Source: Rhizobium sp. TH135 (GTDB taxonomy: Bacteria; Pseudomonadota; Alphaproteobacteria; Rhizobiales; Rhizobiaceae). Taken from it: DNA of 64,000 nt. Both the position numbers and the translations under genes were made by a program. The stretch's first letter is position 1. Each line of letters begins with the position of its first letter. The stretch covers positions 620,001 through 684,000 of the forward strand of contig NZ_PKRP01000001.1 of assembly GCF_002855515.1 (NCBI RefSeq). The letters are read 5' to 3'. The notes beneath the pieces are model-generated. The model searched no databases. It was not told the origin of the DNA and worked only from the letters and a program-made list of their open reading frames with translations. This document shows, one piece after another, positions 1,827-21,521 of this stretch.

Positions 1827-3386
1827 TCAGTGATCGGCCTTGGCATGCTCGTCGGCTTTGGGCTTGGCCTTGGGCGGCAGGATTGCTTCGTCTTCCGCGG
1901 GTGGATGGGCCTCGGTCGCAGCGCCATGCTCTTCCGGCTTGGGTGCCGGCGCGGCAGCTCCCGCACCCTGTGGTGCGATCGGCTGTGCCCGCATCTTCTC
2001 GAGCCAGGCAGCCCCGTGGTCGGCACTCTTGGCACCATCCGAACCCTCGGCGGGCTTGGCTTCAGCGGCAACATCCGCGACGGGTGCCTCTTCCTCGGAG
2101 CCGCCAAGCCCAACCATGCTCTTTAGCGATGAGAACCAGCCGTCGCCTTCGGCGGGTGCCTCTTCGGCAACAGGCGTCTCACCGGCAGCAACGTCATGGC
2201 CAGCGGCTTGTTCGACCGCACCGTCGTGGCTGCTTTCATCCGCGCTATGGGCCGCAGCCTCATCGACAACAGCGGGCTTCTCTTCGGTATGCGCGACCTG
2301 TTCAGCCCCATGCTCGGGCGCAGCCACATGCGCCGCATCGGCAGCCGGGTCTTCAGCATGTGCGGCAGGATCCGCGGCAGCATGTTCGGTCGTGGCGTCT
2401 CCGTGCGTCTCGCCAGAGCCTGCGTCTCCATGGGCGACAGCAGCCGGTTCCGCATGATCCTCGGCCGGCGCCTCGTGCCCCTCGGCCACGGCACCATGGC
2501 CATCGGCGGGTGCCGCATGGCCGTCCGCCGGTACGGCATGTCCTTCTGCTGGCGCTTCATCACCGCCAAGACCGACCATGCCCATCAGCGAGGCCATCCA
2601 GCCCTTTCCTTCTTCGGCACCGTGCTCGGCGACCGGAGTTTCCTCACCGTGTTCGCCGGCCGGCGCATCGCCATGCCCTTCGGCCTCACCCTTGGCATCC
2701 GTCTCGCCATGCCCATCGGCCGGCTTCTCGCCATGGGCATCCTCGGCACCATGAGCCGGCGCCTCTCCGTGACCATCGGCGGCCTTCTCGCCATGGCCCT
2801 CACCTTCCGGCACCAGGCCTTCAGGCTTCACACAATCCGTCTGATCGTTGAGCTTGGCGACAAGCGCCTGAATATCGGCCTCGAGCATGTCGACACGCTC
2901 GCCGAAAAACTCGCCATTCGGCGCAGCAAGACCATCAGCATAACGGGCCGTCAGGACACGCGCCGACATATCCTGAGGCACATGGCTCGGGTCCGGAACG
3001 TAGATAACGTCAGCCCCGACCGCACGACCGCGCATGCCCGAGCGATCCTTGGGACCGCTGGCATCGAGTACCACGACCTGCACCAGGTCGGCCTTCTTCG
3101 TTTCCTGCAGGGTCTTTGCCACGCGCAAGGCCGTCTTGACGCGCGTCAAGCCATCGCCCGGCTCATTGGTGGTGATGAACTTGCGCACCCAGAAGCGATC
3201 CTTTTTGTGGATCTCGACCGTCTTCACTTCCGTGCATTCAAGCCCGTTCAATTCGGCATAGGAGGGGCCGAGCAGTTTGTCCGCGCCGATATAGACGGCA
3301 GCGGCACCCGTGCCGCCAAGGGTGACCAGCACCCCGCCCAAAATCAGCATGAGCTTTCGTGAAAGGTGGATCTTCGGCACCTTCAC
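1827..3386 (-). CDS. Membrane-anchored protein with long His/Ala/Glu-rich tail, unknown function
   Basis: Not recognised as a named family. Taking the GTG at 3386 (GGCGGAG just upstream) gives 519 residues. A basic start (VKVPKIHLSRK) leads into one membrane segment (about 12-32, LMLILGGVLVTLGGTGAAAV). Next comes a folded region to about residue 165 with two cysteines. After that, more than 300 residues are low complexity: repeated GHGE, DGHG, HGAE and AHGD units, with dozens of histidines, alanines, glutamates and prolines. Two copies of a short insert, WMASLMGMVGLGG and WFSSLKSMVGLGG, interrupt the tail. A His-rich tail can bind divalent metals; its divergent placement beside sitABCD makes a periplasmic metal-buffer role conceivable, but this is inference. 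The low-complexity tail could equally be a linker. Confidence 0.6.
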   Translation of the reverse strand: MKVPKIHLSRKLMLILGGVLVTLGGTGAAAVYIGADKLLGPSYAELNGLECTEVKTVEIHKKDRFWVRKFITTNEPGDGLTRVKTALRVAKTLQETKKADLVQVVVLDASGPKDRSGMRGRAVGADVIYVPDPSHVPQDMSARVLTARYADGLAAPNGEFFGERVDMLEADIQALVAKLNDQTDCVKPEGLVPEGEGHGEKAADGHGEAPAHGAEDAHGEKPADGHGETDAKGEAEGHGDAPAGEHGEETPVAEHGAEEGKGWMASLMGMVGLGGDEAPAEGHAVPADGHAAPADGHGAVAEGHEAPAEDHAEPAAVAHGDAGSGETHGDATTEHAAADPAAHAEDPAADAAHVAAPEHGAEQVAHTEEKPAVVDEAAAHSADESSHDGAVEQAAGHDVAAGETPVAEEAPAEGDGWFSSLKSMVGLGGSEEEAPVADVAAEAKPAEGSDGAKSADHGAAWLEKMRAQPIAPQGAGAAAPAPKPEEHGAATEAHPPAEDEAILPPKAKPKADEHAKADH

Positions 3387-3510
3387 GCTTGGAACTCCGC
3401 CATGACACCGTCCCGACTGTTTACGCAATACTGAGGTCGACTATAGCCCCCTTCTCCTTGCGGAACCTTTAACCCCGGCTTTCCAGTTCCGGCACAGATC
3501 ACGGAAAGCT

Positions 3511-3531
3511 TTTTGCAAATGATTTGCAAAA
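3511..3531. promoter_or_regulatory. Perfect palindrome, probable Mur/Fur-family operator of sitA
   Basis: Two 10-base arms, TTTTGCAAAT and its exact complement, flank a central G directly upstream of the sitA -35 box. The TGCAAAT...ATTTGCA pattern resembles Mur-responsive sequences described for rhizobial sitABCD, where Mur with manganese represses transcription. It may also affect the divergent His-rich gene starting at 3386. Confidence 0.7.
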
Positions 3532-3597: not shown

Positions 3598-4485
3598 ATG
3601 GTCTCAAAGCTTGCCTGCCGTCTTTTCGCCCTGGCGCTCCTGCTGCCGGGGACAGCCTTTGCAGACGACAAGCTGAAGGTCGTCACGACTTTCACCGTGA
3701 TTGCCGATATTGCCCAGAATGTTGCAGGCGATGCCGCAATCGTCGAAAGCATCACCAAGCCCGGCGCGGAAATCCACGGCTACCAGCCCACGCCGCGCGA
3801 CATCCTGAAGGCACGCGATGCCAATCTGGTGCTGCGCAATGGCCTCAACCTCGAAGCCTGGTTTGAAAAATTCCTCGCCAATCTCGACGACGTGCCGACC
3901 GTAACCGTCAGTGATGGCATCGAGCCGATCGGCATTGCCGGCGGTGCCTATGACGGCAAGCCCAACCCGCATGCATGGATGTCGCCGGAAAACGCCCTCG
4001 TCTATGTCGAAAACATCCGCAAGGCCCTGACCGATCTCGACCCCGCAAACGCCGCGATCTACGAGGCCAATGCGAGGACCTATTCGCAGAAGATCAGCGC
4101 CGAGATCGAGCCGATGAAGGCGGAAATCGCCAGGATCCCGGAAAACGAGCGCTTCCTCGTGACGAGCGAAGGCGCCTTCTCCTACCTCGCCCGAGATCTC
4201 GGCATGAAGGAACTCTACCTCTGGCCGATCAATGCCGACAGCCAGGGCACGCCGCAGCAGGTCAAGGCGGTCGTTGACCAGGTGATCGAAAACAAGATCC
4301 CCGTCGTATTCTCTGAGAGCACTGTATCCGACAAGCCGGCCAAACAGGTCGCAGCCGAAACCGGGGCACGCTACGGGGGCATACTTTATGTGGACTCCCT
4401 CAGCGAGCCTGATGGCCCGGTCCCGACCTATCTGGATCTCTTGAAGGTGACGGTATCGACCATCGTGAAGGGATTTGCCGGATGA
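3598..4485 (+). CDS. sitA: Manganese/zinc ABC transporter, periplasmic binding protein SitA
   Basis: Cluster A-I (ZnuA/SitA) binding protein of 295 residues that captures Mn2+ (possibly Zn2+ or Fe2+) in the periplasm. Signal peptide at residues 1-22 ends LPGTAFA. Candidate metal ligands are His in [11 protein letters not shown], His in [11 protein letters not shown], Glu in [13 protein letters not shown] and Asp near the C-terminus ([11 protein letters not shown]). It lacks the long His-rich loop typical of ZnuA, favouring a manganese role. First gene of sitABCD; AGGAA precedes the ATG and the stop overlaps sitB. Confidence 0.88.
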
Positions 4486-5369
4486 TCATGGGATCGGGCG
4501 CAAGACGCAATCGCGAAGGGATCGCCGCAGAGGATGTGACGGTCACCTATCGCAACGGCCACACGGCCTTGCGCCATGCGAGTTTTGCGATCCCGCCCGG
4601 AACCATCACGGCCCTTGTCGGCGTCAACGGCGCCGGCAAGTCCACCCTCTTCAAGGCGATCATGGGCTTCGTGCCGGTAGCGTCAGGTGAGATCCGCGTG
4701 CTCGGCATGAGCGTCAAGCAGGCACTCAAGCAAAACCTCGTCGCCTACGTCCCTCAGGCCGAAGAAGTCGACTGGAACTTCCCCGTGCTCGTCGAAGATG
4801 TCGTGATGATGGGCCGTTACGGCCACATGAATTTCCTGCGCATCCCCTCCAAGCGCGATCATCAGCTCGTTGACGAAGCGCTCGCCCGCGTCGGCATGGG
4901 CGATTACCGCAAGCGCCAGATCGGCGAGCTCTCCGGCGGACAGCGCAAGCGCGTCTTCCTTGCCCGTGCACTCGCCCAGGAAGGCCAGGTGATCCTACTC
5001 GACGAACCCTTCACCGGCGTCGATGTCACCACCGAGGAACAGATCATCGGCCTGATGAAGGATCTGCGCGCCGAAGGCCGCGTCATGCTGGTCTCCACCC
5101 ATAATCTCGGCAGCGTGCCCGACTTCTGCGATCGCACCATCTTCGTCAAGGGCACGGTCATCGCCTCGGGCAAGACCGAGGACACCTTCACCGAGGCAAA
5201 CCTGAAAACCGCCTTCGGAGGGGCGCTACGCCACTTCGTGCTCGCCGGCCGCGACCTGCACGACGACGACGATGGCCGCGAGGTCACCGTCATCACCGAT
5301 GACGAGCGCCCCTTCGTCATCTATGGCCAGCCGAAACCAGGAGCATCAGATGCTCGCGACCCTGGTTGA
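4482..5369 (+). CDS. sitB: Manganese ABC transporter ATPase SitB
   Basis: Cytoplasmic ATPase powering SitCD. Walker A GVNGAGKS is at residues 47-54, the signature LSGGQ at 150-154 and Walker B VILLDEP at 170-176, followed by the switch histidine in VSTHNLG. The start ATG overlaps the sitA stop; a second ATG two codons on is possible. The C-terminus (about 240-295) is an acidic extension and overlaps sitC by 20 bases, so translation is coupled. Confidence 0.9.
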
Positions 5370-6258
5370 GCCCTTCACCTATGATTACATGCGCAACGCC
5401 ATCCTGGTGAGCGCATTGGTTGGCGGCGTCTGCGGCTTCCTCTCCGCCTATCTGATGCTGAAGGGCTGGTCGCTGATCGGCGACGCGCTCTCCCATGCCA
5501 TCGTGCCGGGCGTTGCCGGCGCCTACATGCTCGGCCTGCCTTTTGCATTCGGAGCTTTCATGTCCGGCGGGCTCGCAGCGCTTGCCATCCTCTTCCTCAA
5601 CCAGCGGACCAAGCTGAAGGAAGACGCGATCATCGGTTTGATCTTCACCTCCTTCTTCGGCCTTGGCCTGTTCATGGTGTCGATCTCGCCCGTCTCGATC
5701 GACATCAAGACCATCGTGCTCGGCAATATCCTCGCGATCACGCCGGCCGACACGCTGCAGCTCGTGCTGATCGGCGGCGTAAGCCTCCTCGTGCTGACGC
5801 TGAAGTGGAAGGACCTGATGGTCACCTTCTTCGACGAGAACCATGCCCGTTCGATCGGCCTCAAACCCGAGCGTCTCAAGGTAATCTTCTTCACCCTGCT
5901 AGCGGCCTCAACGGTTGCCGCCATGCAGACCGTCGGCGCCTTCCTGGTCATCGCCATGGTCGTGACGCCAGGCGCCACAGCCTATCTGCTGACCGACCGC
6001 TTCCAGCGGCTGATCCTCATGGCACTCGGCATCGGTGCCGGCACGAGCTTCGTCGGCGCTTATGCCAGCTACTTCCTCGACGGCGCCACGGGCGGGATTA
6101 TCGTCGTGCTGCAGACCCTGATCTTCCTCGCAGCCTTCCTCTTCGCCCCCAAGCACGGCTTGCTGGCCGCCCGCAGTCGCGCCCGCGAAGCGCTGGAACC
6201 CATGCCTTCCGCAGCCACGGCAGAACCGCACCGCTTGCCCGAGGAGCGGCCGGCATGA
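5350..6258 (+). CDS. sitC: Manganese ABC transporter permease SitC
   Basis: Inner-membrane ABC-3 family permease of 302 residues with many hydrophobic spans from residue 14 on; motifs [20 protein letters not shown] and [12 protein letters not shown] are typical of ZnuB/SitC. The ATG at 5350 is chosen over the upstream in-frame start at 5272 because AGGAG lies just before it and the family N-terminus begins here. It lies inside the end of sitB and is followed by sitD with an ATGA overlap. The last 30 residues are hydrophilic. Confidence 0.88.
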
Positions 6259-7112
6259 GCGAAACCCTCGAACTCGCGATCCTGCCCTTCCAGCTTCCTT
6301 TCATGCAGTCGGCCTTCGTGGTGACGCTGATGATCGCCATCCCCATGGCACTCCTCTCCTGCTTGCTGGTGCTAAAAGGCTGGTCGCTGATGGGCGACGC
6401 CGTCTCCCATGCCGTGCTTCCGGGCGTGGTCATCGCCTACATCGTCGGTATTCCGCTGGCGATCGGGGCCTTTATCGCCGGTCTCGTCTGTGCGCTTCTG
6501 ACCGGCTTCATCAAGGAGAACAGCCGCATCAAGGAAGACACCGTGCTCGGCATCGTCTTTTCGGGCATGTTCGGTCTGGGCTTGGTCCTCTATGTCCAGG
6601 TCCAGAGCTCCGTTCACCTTGACCACATCCTCTTCGGCGACATGCTGGGTCTGCTGCCCTCGGATCTCATCGAGACCGGCCTGATCGCCCTCTTCGCCAC
6701 CGCATTCCTCGTTGTATTGCGCAAGGATCTTCTGGCCCACGCCTTCGATCCGCAGCACGCCCGCGCCATCGGCCTCTCGGTCCGTCTGCTGCATTACGGC
6801 CAGCTCGCCGTGCTCTCGCTCGTCGTCGTCGGTGCCTTGAAGGCCGTTGGCATCATCCTATCGATTGCCATGCTGGTCGCCCCCGGCGCCATCGCCTTCC
6901 TGCTCACCAAGCGCTATGCAACGATGCTGGTGACGGCCGTGATCGTTGCTGTCTCGTCTTCACTCGCGGGCATCTATCTAAGCTTCTTCATCGACAGTGC
7001 CCCCGCCCCGACGATCGTCTTGATCATGAGCGGCATCTTCATCCTCGCCTTCTTCCGCACGCTTTGGCAGGCCCGCAGCGTCAACCGCATCGCCGCAGCA
7101 GAAAACATCTGA
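6255..7112 (+). CDS. sitD: Manganese ABC transporter permease SitD
   Basis: Second ABC-3 permease, 285 residues, paralogous to SitC: LVLKGWSLMGDAVSHAVLPG and MLVAPGAIAFLL match the SitC motifs. Two different permeases in one operon is the usual SitABCD/MntABCD arrangement, giving a heterodimeric channel. The start overlaps the sitC stop by ATGA. Last gene of the operon; arsA begins 82 bases later on the same strand with its own ribosome binding site. Confidence 0.88.
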   Translation: MSETLELAILPFQLPFMQSAFVVTLMIAIPMALLSCLLVLKGWSLMGDAVSHAVLPGVVIAYIVGIPLAIGAFIAGLVCALLTGFIKENSRIKEDTVLGIVFSGMFGLGLVLYVQVQSSVHLDHILFGDMLGLLPSDLIETGLIALFATAFLVVLRKDLLAHAFDPQHARAIGLSVRLLHYGQLAVLSLVVVGALKAVGIILSIAMLVAPGAIAFLLTKRYATMLVTAVIVAVSSSLAGIYLSFFIDSAPAPTIVLIMSGIFILAFFRTLWQARSVNRIAAAENI

Positions 7113-7194
7113 TCGCCCTGCCACTTGGCATGGATCAAGTGTGCAAAGGCAAGGGCGGGCTAGGGTCTCCTCATCAAAGCGAGGATGGACGCCC

Positions 7195-8964
7195 ATGTCG
7201 ACGATGAAACTGCTTCAAAAACCCACCCGCCATCTGTTTTTCACCGGCAAGGGTGGCGTCGGCAAGACCTCGCTCAGCTGTGCGACGGCCATCGCGCTCG
7301 CCGACCAGGGACTGAAGATCCTGCTCGTCAGCACCGATCCCGCCTCCAATCTCGATGAAATGCTGGGGCTGATCCTCGGCAGCGATCCGACACCTGTGCC
7401 GGGCGTGCCAGGCCTGTCGGCGATGAACATCGATCCCGAGAGCGCAGCAGAAGACTATCGCCAGCGCGTGCTCGGCCAGATGGCACCTGATGTGACCGAA
7501 AAGGACCGCACCACCGTGCGCGAACAACTGTCAGGCGCCTGCACCACCGAGATTGCCGCCTTCGACGAATTCGTCGGCCTGCTGGCCGATGACAATCCAC
7601 GCTTCGACCACATAATCTTCGACACAGCCCCGACCGGCCACACCCTGCGGCTGCTCAGCCTGCCCAAGGCCTGGACAGGTTTTCTGGAGACCAACGAACG
7701 CGGCGCCTCCTGCCTTGGCCCCCATTCCGGGCTGAAAATGCAGGAGGACCGCTTCCGCACGGCGCTGGAATGCCTCGGCGATCCCGCCCGAACCACCATC
7801 GTGCTGGTGACACGCGCCGATCGCGGCGCGATCCGCGAGGCTGCCCGCACCGCCGGAGAACTTTCCGAACTCGGCCTCTCCAACCAGATGCTCGCCGTCA
7901 ACGGCCGCTTCACGCCGACAGATCCGAACGACCCGGTGGCCGCGGCCTTCGCGGCAGAACAGAAGAAGGCACTGACTGACCTGCCAACCGTACTGGCATC
8001 GCTGCCTCGCGACGAGGTCGCCCTCAAACCCTTCGACATGGTGGGACTCGAAGCGCTGCGCGGACTGCTGTCCGATACGCCGCTCCCACCTCCCGGCGAT
8101 ACCGCAGACGACACCTTCGAAAGCCCCGACCTCCCCCGTCTCTCGACGCTGGTCGATGAAATCGCGGCAAGCGGCAAGGGCCTCGTGATGGTCATGGGCA
8201 AGGGCGGCGTCGGCAAGACCACGGTTGCGGCAGCCGTCGCCGTCGGGCTCGCCGCCCGTGGCCACACGGTCCACCTCACCACGACAGACCCGGCGGCCCA
8301 TCTGTCCTTCGTCGTCGGCGCCGCCGCCATGCCCGGCCTGACCGTCGACCGCATCGATCCAGAGGCCGAGACCACCCGCTACATCGACAAGATCATGGCG
8401 ACCAAGGGCCGGGATCTCGATGAAGCCGGGAAGGCCTTGTTGCGCGAGGATCTTGCCTCTCCCTGCACCGAGGAAGTGGCCGTCTTCCACGCCTTTTCGC
8501 GCGTCGTCGGCGAAGCCCGATCGAGCTTCGTCGTCATCGATACGGCCCCGACAGGCCACACGCTGCTGCTCCTCGATGCGACAGGCGCCTATCACCGCCA
8601 GATGACCCGCCACATGGACGACAACGCTCCCGGCCGCATGGTCACGCCGCTGATGCGCCTGCAGGACCCCGCCTATACGCGCGTCCTGCTGGTGACGCTG
8701 CCGGAGACGACACCGGTCTCGGAAGCATCCGCCCTGCAGGACGACCTGCGCCGCGCTGGCATCGCGCCCTATGGCTGGGTGGTAAACAAGTCCATGGCGA
8801 TCACAGGCACCCGCGATCCGCTCCTGCGCGCCCGCATCCGGGGCGAAAAGGCGCAGATCGAAAGGGTGAAACGCGATTATGCCGAGCGGTTATACGGCCT
8901 GGACTCCCGCCCGATTGCTCCGGTGGGGCTGGAAGAATTGAAACGCATTGCGGAAGAGGAATAA
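7195..8964 (+). CDS. arsA: Two-domain ArsA-type arsenite/antimonite ATPase
   Basis: Soluble ATPase that normally energises ArsB to export As(III)/Sb(III). At 589 residues it is the duplicated bacterial form: P-loops GKGGVGKT at 18-25 and 335-342, and signal-transduction motifs DTAPTGHT at 143-150 and 449-456. The three metalloid-binding cysteines of E. coli ArsA (113, 172, 422) have clear counterparts at Cys116 (SGACTTEIAAF), Cys173 (GASCLGP) and Cys424 (ASPCTEEVAVF), so metalloid activation is likely retained. The ATG at 7195 is chosen for GAGGA at 7181-7185. No arsB, arsC, arsD or arsR lies in the window, so its membrane partner must be elsewhere or absent. Confidence 0.88.
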   Translation: MSTMKLLQKPTRHLFFTGKGGVGKTSLSCATAIALADQGLKILLVSTDPASNLDEMLGLILGSDPTPVPGVPGLSAMNIDPESAAEDYRQRVLGQMAPDVTEKDRTTVREQLSGACTTEIAAFDEFVGLLADDNPRFDHIIFDTAPTGHTLRLLSLPKAWTGFLETNERGASCLGPHSGLKMQEDRFRTALECLGDPARTTIVLVTRADRGAIREAARTAGELSELGLSNQMLAVNGRFTPTDPNDPVAAAFAAEQKKALTDLPTVLASLPRDEVALKPFDMVGLEALRGLLSDTPLPPPGDTADDTFESPDLPRLSTLVDEIAASGKGLVMVMGKGGVGKTTVAAAVAVGLAARGHTVHLTTTDPAAHLSFVVGAAAMPGLTVDRIDPEAETTRYIDKIMATKGRDLDEAGKALLREDLASPCTEEVAVFHAFSRVVGEARSSFVVIDTAPTGHTLLLLDATGAYHRQMTRHMDDNAPGRMVTPLMRLQDPAYTRVLLVTLPETTPVSEASALQDDLRRAGIAPYGWVVNKSMAITGTRDPLLRARIRGEKAQIERVKRDYAERLYGLDSRPIAPVGLEELKRIAEEE

Positions 8965-8979
8965 GACCTGCGGAGCGTT

Positions 8980-9876
8980 TTAGACCCGAGCCTCTTCCTC
9001 GGCACGCTTGGCGCGGCGTGACACCACCCATTCCCGCCAAACGGTGAAGAGACCCGCACCGACGACGATGACGGCACCCACCACCGTGTTCCAGCGCAAC
9101 ACTTCGCCAAAGACGGTGACCGCAATCATCGCCCCGAGCACCAGCTGCCAGTAGGAGATCGGCTGGACGATCACGGCATCGAGGTTCTCATAGGCCTTGA
9201 TCAACGCCAGATGCCCCACGATGCCGGTGCAGCAGAGGCCGATCATCAGGCTCCAGCCGGCCGGTGTGAACGGTGTCCAGAAGAAGGGACCGAGCAGGTT
9301 CGAGCCGATGAAGCCGACGATTGCCAGATAGAAGAAGCTGGTCGATGGCTGGTCGTCGCGGCTGACAAGACGTGTGGCGATCCCGTAGATCGCGCCGAGC
9401 ACTGCGCAGATCAGCGGCAGCCAGATATAGGAATTGAAGCCGTCGCCGCTGGGCGCCAGCATGATCACGACGCCGACGAGGCCGAAAAGGATCGCCGTCC
9501 AGCGCCGCCAGCCGACTTTTTCCCCGAGGATCGGCATGGACAGGAGCGCGACAAAGATCGGCCCGGCCGCGAAGATCGCCTGGCTCTGGGCAAGTCCCAC
9601 CTGCGTGAAGGCCACGATCGAGATAAGGATCTGCAAGAAGAGGATGAGGCCCCTGAGGATTTGCAGAAACGGCCGCTTCGTGTTGACCGCGACGCTCAGG
9701 CCGCCGGACGACCGCATCGCCAGAAACAGCGCGAAGGCGACGAAGGCCCAGTAGCGCACCATCGCCACCTGCACCGGCGAGTGGGTTTCGCCGAGATGCT
9801 TGGAAAGGCCGTCCTGAATGGCGAAGACGGAAAAGGCGAGGAAGGTGAAGAGATAGCCGAGCGGCGTCGATTTCAT
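8980..9876 (-). CDS. EamA-family (drug/metabolite) transporter
   Basis: Inner-membrane exporter-type protein of about 298 residues with ten predicted hydrophobic segments in two EamA halves (first from LGYLFTFLAFSVFAIQDGLSK, second from WLPLICAVLGAIYGIATRL). The ATG at 9876 starts where the family usually begins; a longer frame to 10071 lacks any family resemblance. It ends 15 bases from arsA, tail to tail, and is divergent from a LysR regulator that may control it. Substrate unknown; RhtA/RarD-like members export amino acids or metabolites. Confidence 0.82.
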   Translation of the reverse strand: MKSTPLGYLFTFLAFSVFAIQDGLSKHLGETHSPVQVAMVRYWAFVAFALFLAMRSSGGLSVAVNTKRPFLQILRGLILFLQILISIVAFTQVGLAQSQAIFAAGPIFVALLSMPILGEKVGWRRWTAILFGLVGVVIMLAPSGDGFNSYIWLPLICAVLGAIYGIATRLVSRDDQPSTSFFYLAIVGFIGSNLLGPFFWTPFTPAGWSLMIGLCCTGIVGHLALIKAYENLDAVIVQPISYWQLVLGAMIAVTVFGEVLRWNTVVGAVIVVGAGLFTVWREWVVSRRAKRAEEEARV

Positions 9877-17406: not shown

Positions 17407-20400
17407 TCAGATTTCCTGATAGGCTGCGATAACCGCCGCGAGCTGGACGTCGTTCATGGCCTGCACCTGCGGGGTCGTCAGGGCGAAGAGTTGCGCAGAG
17501 CTCAGATCATCGATGTCCTGGGTCGAAAGACCGGCAATCGCGGACGTGGCAATGGCGGCTATGTCTTCAGTGGCGAAGAGCTGCAGGTCACCATCCTCCA
17601 GGGCACGGATCGCGGCCGATCCGAGAGCGGCGACCTGCGCTGCGGTCAAAGCCTCGATCTGCCCCGTGGTCATGGCAACCACTTGCTCAGTCGATAGCGA
17701 CCCGATGACCCGCGAACTGAGCGCTGCGACCTGAGCGGTGTTGAGAGCGACGATGCTGCTGGTCGACAGGCTGCGGATCTGTGTCGATGTCAGAGCAGAG
17801 AACTGACTGCTCGTCAGGCCAGCGACCTGCGCCGACGTCAATGCCCGGATCTGGGACGTCGTCAGCGCACTCATCTGCGATGTCGTCAAGCCGGCGAGCT
17901 GAGCGCTGCCGAGGGCGGCGATATTGGCCGTCGACAATCCGACGATCGCCCGCGAACTGATGGCGGCGATATCGCTCGATTCCAGCGCACCCAAGTCTTC
18001 GGTCGTGAGACCGGCAACCGCAGCGCTCGAGAGCAAGGCCAAGAGGGCCGTCGTCAGAGAGCCGATCTGCTCGGAAGACAGGGCGGCGATCTGGGCAGAA
18101 GCGAGACCGGCAAAAGCACGGGTGTTGATTGCGGTAATCTGGCTGGTGGAGAGCGAGGCAAACGTATCGGACGTCAGAGCCCGCAACTGCGCGCTGGTCA
18201 AGGCACCGATCGCGGCCGATGTCAGCCCGTCGAATTGCGTGCTGTTGAGAGCAGCAATCTGCGCCGTGGTCAGCGCGGAGGCCTGCCCGGACGTGAGGCC
18301 GGCCAACTGGGTGGTGTCGAGAGTGGCGAAGGCAGATGGGGCGATGGAAGCAATCGTTCGGCTGCTCAATACGGCAAGTTCCGACGAGGTCAGCGTATCG
18401 AGCTGGGTAGAGGCGAGCGGCGCACTTCCAAGCGCCGCCAGTTGCGACGTCGAAAGAGCAGCAAATTCCGCGCTTCCGACCGCAGCCCATAGAGTGCTGC
18501 CAAGATCAGCAAGCGCACGCGTGCTCAAGGATTGCATCTGTTCGCTCGACAGAGATCCGAACTGCTCTGGCGTCAGCGAGCGAACCTGGGCACTTGTGAG
18601 CCCGGCGACCGCGGCTGTGGAGAGTGCATCGATCTGAGTGCTGGTCAGGGCGTCGATTTGCGCTGATGTCAGTGCTGCGACCTGAGAGGCGGTCAGGCTC
18701 GAAATCTGGTCGGATGTCAGCGCCGCGATGCCGCTGCTGGAAAGCGCGCCAATGACACGAGACGGCAGAGTGGCGATCTCGGAAGATGTCAGGGTACCGA
18801 TGGCACCGGTAGTCAATGCGCGAATAGCCGACGAACTCAGCGCACCCAGTTGCGTGCTCGTCAGCGCATCGAAGGTCGCCGTGCTCAGGGCAGAAATCTG
18901 TTGGGACGTCAGAGCCGCGATGCCACGCGTGCTGATCGCCCTGATCTGCGCCGTGTCGAGCAATCCAAGTGCGGTGCTGGAAAGCGCCGCGATCTGGCTC
19001 GACGACAGTGTCGCGATCTGGCCCGTGGTCAGGGCATTCAGCTGAGTGCTCTGCAGCGAACCAATCACGGCGGTCGAGAGAGCTGTGATCTGAGCAGAGG
19101 TAAGAGCGACCAGCTGGCTCGAGGTCAGGCTGGAGAATGCACCGGTCGTCAGGCCGGCCAGCGAACGAGATTGCAGCGCGGCAATGTCGGCGGAATCGAA
19201 GGTGGAGAGATCATCGGACCCGAGTGCTGCGACCGAGGTCGACGACAGGGCCGCAATCTGGGCGCTCGACAGACTGGCGATTTGCGCCGACGTCATGGCC
19301 GCAACCTGCCCTGAGGCGAGAGCCGCCACGGCCCGCGTGTTCATCGCGGCGATCAGCGTGGTCGACAGGGTGCCGATCACAGAAGTGGAGATGCCACGGA
19401 TGGCAGCGGAGGTGAGCGCGGCGAACTCGTTCGTGGAGAATGTCTCCAGGTCGCTGGCCAAGAGTGCTGCGACGTCGCTCGACGAGAGCGCGGCGATCTG
19501 GGCCGATGTCAGCGCCGCGATCTGGTCGCTGGTCATCGCATCGAGTTGGGCGCTGGTGAGCGCGCCGATGGCACGGCTGTTCAGTGCGGCGATCTGCTCG
19601 GTGGAAAGCGTGGTGATGTTGACGTTGCCGAGCGCAACAATCTGGGCAGATCCGAGCGCCGCAATCTGGGCCGTGCTCAAACCGTCGATCTGACTGCTGT
19701 TGAGTGCTGCCACCTGGGCTGTCGTCAGGCTCGCAATCTGGCCGCTGGAGAGCGCCGTCAGCTGAGCCGAGAGCAGGCTGGCGATCTGGACTGTCGTCAG
19801 CGCCTGCAGTGCACGGGAATTCAGGGCCGCAAGCTCGGTGGACGTGAAGTTCGCAAGATCGTCGGTCCCGAGCCCGGCCACGCCCGACGAGGACAGGGCG
19901 GCAAGCTGCGCGGTCGAGAGGGCCGCGACCTGCGCACTATCGAGCGCGGCGATCTTGGCCGACCCGAGCATCGCGATCACGCGGGTGGTGAGACCGCTGA
20001 TCTGCAGGGTGCTAAGCGAGAGCAGCGTGCCGGAGTTGAGCGCGTTGACTTGAGCGCTCGTCAGACCAGCAAGCTGGGCTGACGCGAGGCCGTCGACCTG
20101 ATCCGATGTCAGTGAAGCGATCTGCGCCGTGGTCAAGGCGGCGATCTTGGCCGAAGTCAGGCTCGTCAGCTGTGCGGACCCGAGCGAGGCAAAGACGTCG
20201 ACCGAAATACCGGCCAGGGCGCGCGTCGAAATGGCGGCCACATCCTCTGCGGACAGCACATCGATATCATCGGACCCGAGGCCCTTGATCGCCGCGGAGC
20301 TGAGCGCCGCAAGCTGGCCGGTCGTCATCACATCGATCTGCTCGGTCGAGAGTGCCGCCAGCTGTGTCGAAGACAGGGCAGCCACCGTACCGCTCCGCAG

Positions 20401-21069
20401 GGCTGCGATCTGATCAGTCCCAAAGGAAGCAAATTTATCGGCGTTGAGCACCGTTATCTGGCGCGAGGTCAGGCCTGAGACCTGCAGCGCAGAGAGACCA
20501 TCGATCTGGCTGCTCGTAAGGCCAGCGATGACAGCGGTGGACAGAGAGGCAATCTGGGCCGTGGTGAGACCAGCAAGCTGACTGCTGGTCAGTGCGGCAA
20601 AATTGGTGGCGGACAGACCGGAAAGCGCCCGTGTAGACAGAGCGGAGAGCTCGGCTGCGGTCAGCGTCGCAATATCGTCCGTGCCGAGACCGGCAAGCGC
20701 CACACTGGTGAGCGCGCTCAGTTGGGACGTCGTCAGGGCATTGAACTGATCGGCCGACAGCGCTGCGATCTGGATAGAAGAAAGCGCGCCGAGCTGACCG
20801 CTCTGCAGCCCAATCATCTTGGCACTGTCGATGACGGCGAGCTGATCCATCGTCAATCCGCGCACCGCAGCAGCCGAAACGGCGCGCAACTGGCTGGATG
20901 ACAGACTGTCGAAATCATCTGTCTGGAAGGCCGAGATCTGCTTCGACGACATGGCGCCGATCTGAGCGGAGCTCAGCGCATTGACGTCTTCGCTGGAGAA
21001 AGCCGCGATCGTCGATGTCGCCAGCGTCCTGATCTGAGTGATGCTCATCGAAGGAATGATCGTAGCCAT
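17407..21069 (-). CDS. Giant octapeptide-repeat protein, function unknown
   Basis: No family recognised. From the ATG at 21069 (AGGGCGG upstream) it has 1220 residues, which are fully explained as 6 lead residues, 151 octads and 9 tail residues, less a 3-residue deletion. The octad consensus is [AGS]-L-[ST]-[ST]-x-Q-[IVL]-[ASG], for example ALTSAQIA. No cysteine or histidine was noticed, and only one tryptophan. No signal peptide, no membrane span and no RTX-like glycine-aspartate repeat is visible. The octads are ordered into 17-octad (136-residue) super-repeats; see the repeat entry. The regular hydrophobic positions 2 and 7 suggest a solenoid, whether beta or short-helix is open. A surface, secreted (type I-like) or cytoplasmic scaffold role are all possible. 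The gene stands alone, with G+C like its neighbours. Confidence 0.8.
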   Translation of the reverse strand: MATIIPSMSITQIRTLATSTIAAFSSEDVNALSSAQIGAMSSKQISAFQTDDFDSLSSSQLRAVSAAAVRGLTMDQLAVIDSAKMIGLQSGQLGALSSIQIAALSADQFNALTTSQLSALTSVALAGLGTDDIATLTAAELSALSTRALSGLSATNFAALTSSQLAGLTTAQIASLSTAVIAGLTSSQIDGLSALQVSGLTSRQITVLNADKFASFGTDQIAALRSGTVAALSSTQLAALSTEQIDVMTTGQLAALSSAAIKGLGSDDIDVLSAEDVAAISTRALAGISVDVFASLGSAQLTSLTSAKIAALTTAQIASLTSDQVDGLASAQLAGLTSAQVNALNSGTLLSLSTLQISGLTTRVIAMLGSAKIAALDSAQVAALSTAQLAALSSSGVAGLGTDDLANFTSTELAALNSRALQALTTVQIASLLSAQLTALSSGQIASLTTAQVAALNSSQIDGLSTAQIAALGSAQIVALGNVNITTLSTEQIAALNSRAIGALTSAQLDAMTSDQIAALTSAQIAALSSSDVAALLASDLETFSTNEFAALTSAAIRGISTSVIGTLSTTLIAAMNTRAVAALASGQVAAMTSAQIASLSSAQIAALSSTSVAALGSDDLSTFDSADIAALQSRSLAGLTTGAFSSLTSSQLVALTSAQITALSTAVIGSLQSTQLNALTTGQIATLSSSQIAALSSTALGLLDTAQIRAISTRGIAALTSQQISALSTATFDALTSTQLGALSSSAIRALTTGAIGTLTSSEIATLPSRVIGALSSSGIAALTSDQISSLTASQVAALTSAQIDALTSTQIDALSTAAVAGLTSAQVRSLTPEQFGSLSSEQMQSLSTRALADLGSTLWAAVGSAEFAALSTSQLAALGSAPLASTQLDTLTSSELAVLSSRTIASIAPSAFATLDTTQLAGLTSGQASALTTAQIAALNSTQFDGLTSAAIGALTSAQLRALTSDTFASLSTSQITAINTRAFAGLASAQIAALSSEQIGSLTTALLALLSSAAVAGLTTEDLGALESSDIAAISSRAIVGLSTANIAALGSAQLAGLTTSQMSALTTSQIRALTSAQVAGLTSSQFSALTSTQIRSLSTSSIVALNTAQVAALSSRVIGSLSTEQVVAMTTGQIEALTAAQVAALGSAAIRALEDGDLQLFATEDIAAIATSAIAGLSTQDIDDLSSAQLFALTTPQVQAMNDVQLAAVIAAYQEI
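17605..20691 (-). repeat. Eight tandem super-repeats of 17 octads (408 bp) within the repeat gene
   Basis: Units begin at 20691, 20283, 19875, 19467, 19227, 18819, 18411 and 18012, and a last partial unit begins at 17604. Full units are 17 octads; the fourth has only 10 (seven octads missing) and the seventh lacks 3 residues in its first octad (STQLD). Position 1 is often GLGTDDIA-like, position 2 carries an acidic residue (TLTSSELA), position 3 an Arg (ALSTRALA, AISSRAIV) and position 13 a second Arg (ALNSRAIG, AINTRAFA). Codons differ between copies, so the pattern is old and kept at protein level. Confidence 0.85.
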
Positions 21070-21521
21070 CAACGCCCGCCCTAAAGAAATGTGGATCAAA
21101 TATGCATTGCGACCCCACACTAGGCGCGCGTCTCCCCCGGGTTGACGCGCTAGCCCGGCGGCTGCTGCAAGGCGCACGTTGAACAACGGGCGACATCTGG
21201 CAGTGCGGCTGCGGACGCAATTTTCAGTGGAAACATGGCTCTTGAGAGCCTGGCGTTGGATCGGGCATCATGCAGCAGAGATGGTCTCTGCTTCCCCCGC
21301 CATCACAATGACGCAAGGCGGAAAATCCCGCCGCTCGCCTGCGCGAATCCCATGCGGATTCGAAGGCTCGTCATTTATGCGATATGACGCAGAAATTAAC
21401 CCTTCGTCAATCTTTAAGGCAGCACTTCCTGCAGCCCTGAGTCGGGTCAGAACGACATTGCCCGCAATTGATGCGATGGCGCCACAGCGGAAAACTGCAG
21501 AATCCGGCCGACCCCGCCGCC
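21070..21521. other. Intergenic region upstream of the repeat gene
   Basis: About 450 bases between the repeat gene start and the end of the GFA-family gene. It must hold the repeat gene promoter; CATATT-like sequence near 21095-21105 (minus strand) is a possible -10 but no convincing -35 was found. GCGCGTC...GACGCGC around 21125-21150 can form a hairpin. Short open frames here look random. Confidence 0.4.

Follow-up and report, generated by a model that had tools for sequence, protein, structure and literature searches.

A stand-alone arsA gene with a putative FixK/FnrN-type promoter in Rhizobium sp. TH135

The arsA gene, its product and its surroundings

We analyzed a window of 64,000 nt (positions 620,001 to 684,000 of contig NZ_PKRP01000001.1) from Rhizobium sp. 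TH135, whose genome (4.80 Mb in 14 contigs) is 99.94% complete. An open reading frame at 7195–8964 on the forward strand encodes a stand-alone two-domain ArsA ATPase of 589 aa. The product matched TIGR04291 (arsen_driv_ArsA) with 755.3 bits against a cut-off of 650, contained two stretches of PF02374 in a profile search, and aligned over residues 4–586 with E. coli ArsA of the ArsDAB pump (structure 1f48, 670 bits), with which it shares the two domains, both P-loops and the three metalloid cysteines. The 1f48 protein is presumably the ArsA of plasmid R773. Both P-loops read GKGGVGKT (residues 18–25, encoded at 7246–7269, and residues 335–342, at 8197–8220, forward strand), and DTAPTGHT motifs occupy residues 143–150 and 449–456. 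The alignment identified C116 (codon at 7540–7542), C173 (7711–7713) and C424 (8464–8466; all on the forward strand) as the metalloid-site cysteines; each was invariant in 85 of 85 ArsA proteins, a set that includes the window's own and from which the fragments and broken copies L065, L084, L089, L100 and L101 had been removed beforehand.

Upstream of arsA, the genes of a Mn/Fe-type ABC importer (sitABCD-like; 3598–7112, forward strand, recognized by profile matches) encode a ZnuA-type binding protein, an ABC ATPase scoring over the cut-off of a Mn/Fe transporter model, and two ABC-3 permeases. Convergent with arsA lies an EamA-family permease gene (8980–9876, reverse strand). The sequence-only reading had described a two-domain ArsA with both P-loops and all three metalloid cysteines intact, situated between a metal importer and an EamA gene; TIGR04291, the 1f48 alignment and the motifs agree on the protein, and the neighbors are as it said. 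A perfect palindrome upstream of sitA, TGCAAATGATTTGCA (3514–3528), occurs once in the window; we take it to be a Mur/Fur-type box, and it is likely the importer's own control site. It recurred with 0–1 mismatch in the related loci L033–L036, L038, L044, L046, L049, L088 and L093 and with 3–4 mismatches in L039–L043. An ORF at 1827–3428 (reverse strand, 533 aa), which adjoins and diverges from the importer, encodes a protein with an N-terminal hydrophobic stretch, a His/Ala/Glu-rich tail and no Pfam match. Elsewhere in the window, the gene at 17407–21186 (reverse strand) encodes a 1259-aa protein in which 41 ALTTAQ repeat stretches were matched (PF20080, 668 bits).

In a tree of 85 ArsA rows, computed by a quick method with SH-aLRT support only and with long-branch warnings, ArsD-linked ArsA (12 rows) and ArsD-less ArsA (73 rows) were separated by a branch with an SH-aLRT value of 100. 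By this tree the window's ArsA belongs to the ArsD-less branch of alpha- and betaproteobacteria and stands, in contrast to the E. coli ArsDAB system, across that branch from the ArsD-linked proteins. Nineteen of the 21 proteins from the window's site fell into one group, with L048 and L049 apart. Full-length ArsA was found in 6 of 151 genomes of the family sample, two of them ArsD-linked. Other settings of arsA varied. In Reyranella relatives, Rhizobium alvei, Polaromonas and Ideonella it is part of an ars gene cluster or adjoins one, but its neighbors are other genes in Hoeflea, R. johnstonii 3841, Neorhizobium, Sinorhizobium sp. A49, Bradyrhizobium and others, and on a Roseibium plasmid it has no ars neighbor. 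On plasmid pRX1 of Methylocapsa polymorpha (L114), a lone arsA lies beside a merP-merT group and a MerR-family regulator. The stand-alone relative L054 presumably carries, going by its strain name, the arsA known as Rle1. Rle1 of Rhizobium leguminosarum bv. viciae 3841 is included in cluster 1 of the ArsA classification by Castillo and Saier 2010 (PMC2963123, in the part of the text available), which is the same family as the window's ArsA.

Arsenic genes and arsenite exit proteins

The window's arsA is the only full-length copy in its genome. Searches of the whole genome gave no match for ArsB, ArsD or an ArsP-type protein, and no Acr3 over the cut-off of 282.8; the only Acr3 match, of 31 bits (C6:279064), was rejected as an SBF-family protein adjoining an acyl-CoA ligase-like gene. 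The genome thus holds neither a complete ArsAB nor a complete ArsA-Acr3 pump (ArsB or Acr3, and ArsD). This bears out the view of the sequence-only reading that the ArsA is an orphan, and the arsB in a regulated unit elsewhere, which it had named as evidence to the contrary, did not appear.

A separate ars operon was present on the same contig, 84 kb upstream of arsA and outside the window, in the order arsR-arsC-aqpS-arsC-arsH. Its first arsC-like gene belongs to the low-molecular-weight-phosphatase family and scored below the NCBIfam arsC cut-offs, the other arsC is of the glutaredoxin type (TIGR00014, 147 bits), and arsH matched TIGR02690 with 402 bits. The aqpS-like product is a MIP family protein (PF00230, 83 bits against a cut-off of 25) whose first box reads NPV and second NPA; with its gene inside the ars operon, it is an ars-operon aquaglyceroporin of the AqpS type. 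This channel is the only recognized arsenite exit in the genome. As the ars operon is present and the pumps are absent, the cell handles arsenic, but without a pump known to take ArsA. In the available parts of the literature, AqpS is described as standing in for ArsB in a Sinorhizobium operon (PMC6205960), and the S. meliloti AqpS pathway is credited to Yang et al. 2005 (via PMC6205960 and PMC4435449). The TH135 operon is similar in having an aqpS-like gene where relatives have acr3, but here the genome also has an ArsA, unlinked and under another type of predicted promoter.

Acr3, ArsB and ArsD were searched in 45 genomes and AqpS in 46. Among 41 non-enteric ArsA carriers, 18 had AqpS only, 21 Acr3 only, two had both and none had neither; for the 19 genomes with arsA at the window's site, the respective numbers were 11, seven and one for both. 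A match to the AqpS query in G188, at 31% identity, was left out of the AqpS count. ArsD was found in 0 of the 41 non-enteric versus 4 of 4 enteric genomes. Eight of the 41, the window's genome not among them, had ArsB-family matches of 86–112 bits, which are over the Pfam cut-off of 22.2 but far below the 527–542 bits of enteric ArsB; such a match occurred in four of the 18 genomes with AqpS and without Acr3, and in the remaining 14 there was none. ArsP, present in 2 of the 19 window-site genomes and absent from that of TH135, was dismissed as a partner.

The predicted promoter of arsA

Our principal new result is a putative promoter that arsA has for itself, located in the 82 bp that separate it from sitD. 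It consists of a FixK/FnrN-type box (CRP/FNR family), ACTTGGCATGGATCAAGT, at 7123–7140 on the forward strand (core TTG-N8-CAA at 7125–7138), with its center 63 bp from the arsA start, and a −10-like TAGGGT at 7161–7166 (forward strand), 20 bp past the 18-mer. From this spacing, transcription is predicted to start near 7173, which would put the box center near −41.5, the class II position; the predicted layout has the class II arrangement, with the box overlapping the −35 region and the −10 element at fixed spacing. Published forms, in the accessible parts of the respective papers, are TTGA-N6-TCAA for the FixK box (PMC3050613) and TTGAT-N4-ATCAA for the FixK/FnrN box in R. leguminosarum 3841 (PMC7888657). 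The window's box, TTGG-N6-TCAA, has 7 of the 8 specified bases of the former and 8 of the 10 of the latter, and the arsA promoter of R. johnstonii 3841 reaches 9 of 10. The arsA promoter thus resembles the anaerobox promoter of fixNOQP in R. leguminosarum 3841 (PMC7888657, part of the text) in having a TTGAT-N4-ATCAA-like box near the start site, but the window's box differs from that type in two of ten positions. Compared with E. coli ArsDAB, arsA here lacks ArsD, ArsB and an ArsR operon and would instead use its own FixK/FnrN-type promoter.

All 34 Rhizobiaceae-type ArsD-less loci that have upstream sequence carry TTGN-N6-TCAA 40–118 bp 5′ of arsA; this count takes the window as extra, omits L065 and L084, which have no upstream sequence, and includes two pairs with identical proteins (L005/L052 and L006/L082). 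The same search gave 1 of 16 Bradyrhizobium/Afipia loci, 1 of 25 other ArsD-less loci and 0 of 12 ArsD-linked arsA loci. The exact TTGA-N6-TCAA occurred in 7 of the 34, R. johnstonii 3841 among them. Of 35 promoters, the window's included, 32 have the box center 50–75 bp from the start of arsA (500 shuffles: mean 0.15, at most 2), and TAnnnT followed 18–21 bp past the 18-mer in 28 of 35, the other 7 being without it at this spacing (300 shuffles: mean 0.02, at most 1); as the arsA loci are related, these shuffle numbers are not probabilities. A single box match also means little, since the whole window contains 3 TTG-N5-GATCAA matches versus 0.55 expected. The stronger point appears to be that box and arsA stay together across differing contexts, the box being kept where sit was lost, has moved or is not nearby. 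TTG-N8-CAA was also seen farther upstream in some Bradyrhizobium, Reyranella and other loci, and three Reyranella-type loci of this kind have TAnnnT at the set spacing, too.

The promoter of the ars operon, in front of arsR, carries a different palindrome, ATATCCA-N6-TGGATAT. Parts of its arms, ATATC and GATAT, which would belong to a putative ArsR operator, are absent from the 200 bp upstream of arsA, and conversely no TTG-N8-CAA box was found in the window's sitA upstream region or in the arsR upstream regions examined. A sigma-70 scan of 6900–9100 had its sole match inside arsA, at 7589, and the fold of the 82-bp RNA leader was not remarkable (z −1.6). Because arsA has its own box, which was kept in 34 of 34 relatives across contexts and found in 0 of 12 ArsD-linked loci, it is probably low oxygen, and not ArsR or the Mn regulator, that turns the gene on. 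Our literature search returned no paper with both arsA and FixK, or with both FnrN and "arsenical pump", and regulation by oxygen is not a topic in the available text of Castillo and Saier 2010 (PMC2963123).

Partner and role of the stand-alone ArsA

What is unusual about this arsA is its partner and its regulation. ArsA is the textbook case of an ATPase that converts a carrier into a primary pump. Without ArsB, ArsD, Acr3 and ArsP, the TH135 protein requires a partner other than those pumps, or none. We consider it fairly probable that arsA encodes a functional ArsA-family metalloid ATPase which is kept outside the ars operon under a low-oxygen class II promoter and aids the cell's arsenite exit. 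Low oxygen would act through the FixK/FnrN-type box so that ArsA is made; ArsA would bind As(III) or Sb(III) via C116, C173 and C424, hydrolyze ATP, and work in trans with the separate ars pathway. The exit would be Acr3 in many relatives and, in TH135, AqpS or an unrecognized carrier. From sequence features we infer that oxygen controls the gene, that the protein binds metalloids and contributes to tolerance, and which partner it has. As the partner in TH135, an unrecognized carrier is our first, tentative choice, followed at a somewhat lower level by no partner at all, i.e., a cytosolic buffer or chaperone; AqpS seems rather unlikely, something else altogether improbable, and the neighboring importer or EamA less likely still. 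The suggestion of the sequence-only reading that ArsA drives another carrier therefore stands in part: the genome has no known pump, but the specific neighbors are poor candidates, EamA being weakly supported and the importer unlikely.

Under low oxygen, ArsA could also do without any transporter and buffer metalloids in the cytosol or serve as a Get3-like chaperone. We regard this as unlikely, though it is the best placed of the competing explanations. It agrees with the lack of ArsB, Acr3 and ArsP over cut-off in 11 of the 19 window-site genomes and with the presence of Get3 among the single-domain relatives in the structure database. The Get3/TRC40 tail-anchor chaperone has a CXXC zinc motif, however, and a search for CXXC in the window's ArsA found none. 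Furthermore, the three metalloid cysteines are kept in all 85 proteins and Acr3 is kept in many relatives, which argues against this reading.

Less likely than a transporter-free role, but itself a sub-case of the favored arsenite-exit reading, with which its odds overlap, is that ArsA loads, gates or scavenges for AqpS, so that ArsC-made arsenite leaves without back-leak. Every one of the 41 non-enteric carriers has Acr3 or AqpS, and 18 have AqpS while lacking Acr3. All 20 AqpS homologs of at least 54% identity are encoded next to arsR and an arsC. In close relatives, the place between the two arsC genes is taken by either aqpS or acr3: acr3 of L124 (G166) and aqpS of L126 (the TH135 operon) occupy this position, while the remaining operon proteins are 86–95% identical, so that the protein for arsenite exit has been exchanged in nature. 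Mapped on the ArsA tree, the exit type switches at least 9 times (the two genomes with both were entered as Acr3), and ArsA stays. On the other hand, the co-occurrence was counted in ArsA carriers alone, hence without a baseline, and does not demonstrate that ArsA depends on AqpS or Acr3; G107, a genome without arsA, had no AqpS. Moreover, the 20 AqpS loci contain no arsA within about 1.5 kb of flanks, and 4 of the 18 genomes have an ArsB-family match over the Pfam cut-off. To our knowledge, no mechanism has been described by which a channel such as AqpS would use ATP. A review account of the S. meliloti aqpS operon does not name arsA as part of it (PMC6205960, part of the text), and the passages on aqpS and arsA in the literature consulted contain no proposal that both proteins work together. 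As partners of ArsA, the available text of Castillo and Saier 2010 (PMC2963123) proposes ArsB, ArsP, Acr3 and CstA (in other clusters); neither the word aquaporin nor the word aquaglyceroporin appears in the paper. A more specific version, that ArsA turns the passive AqpS into a one-way, ATP-assisted exit as part of a low-oxygen FixK/FnrN regulon when reduced arsenic prevails, is a long shot.

That arsA is a decaying relic of a lost ars operon is quite improbable. A match at E 1e-20 was found in 31 of 63 genomes of the genus, so the gene is dispensable, and its median dN/dS of 0.104 (36 pairs of 9 sequences) exceeds the 0.041–0.080 of neighboring genes (lysR pairs with L044, spoiled by an in-frame stop in the L044 stretch, are to be disregarded). 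The ArsA copies of L089 and G227:C348 each contain a single in-frame stop, possibly decay or an assembly error. But a dN/dS of about 0.10 means that arsA is under purifying selection, the catalytic residues are intact, and the box is kept in all 34 Rhizobiaceae-type relatives.

It is very unlikely that arsA is co-transcribed as the last sitABCD gene from the metal-dependent box, serving metal import or balancing metalloid entry. The gene lies on the same strand as sitD, and the 82-bp gap between the two showed no terminator-like site, so importer transcripts could run on into arsA. Among the best 80 of 336 relatives from a genome-collection scan, 21 loci share the window's site between lysS/sit and eamA-lysR (L033–L049, L088, L089, L093 and L103; L065, cut off upstream, is outside this count), and in 16 of these 21 the importer lies 84–153 bp upstream of arsA. 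Yet the gap contains the conserved predicted promoter, and in the same 21 from the best 80 of 336, arsA and box persist where the importer is 6.4–6.6 kb away (L045–L047), reduced to a sitD remnant (L048) or absent (L103). The same holds for Hoeflea, R. johnstonii, Neorhizobium and others, for which no sit cluster was found in the arsA flanks retrieved. The importer is not a likely partner of ArsA either.

The least probable alternative, put forward by the sequence-only reading, is that ArsA powers the convergent EamA permease, which would then be a new exporter of metalloids: the lack of a known pump and the adjacency of eamA to arsA in the window and in 13 of the 21 same-site loci (best 80 of 336) speak for it, but the genes are on opposite strands, in 8 of these 21 they are 3.8–4.8 kb apart with a large gene between them (1278 aa in L039), and in 21 of 21 eamA stays beside a lysR-type gene. 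No homolog of the window's EamA was found in the 62 other loci (tblastn, E 1e-4). As its adjacency is not conserved, EamA was set aside as a partner; a counterpoint is an EamA-family gene of a different kind directly upstream of arsA in Paucibacter (L099). Carriers adjoining arsA vary with context, with LysE in Hoeflea (L050), TauE in R. alvei (L058) and AI-2E in Bradyrhizobium (L055) besides the Paucibacter EamA (4 of 10 neighbors scanned, picked by eye), and their different families name no partner, yet leave room for another carrier.

If the AqpS proposal were true, AqpS would be a fourth metalloid partner class for ArsA, beside ArsB, Acr3 and ArsP, as well as a MIP channel coupled to ATP. 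More generally, ArsA is kept by a whole branch without ArsD (0 of 41) and, in 18 of 41 genomes, without Acr3. An ArsA kept without the known pumps would, if working, have a new kind of partner or job, and the putative oxygen-type promoter suggests when the cell needs it.
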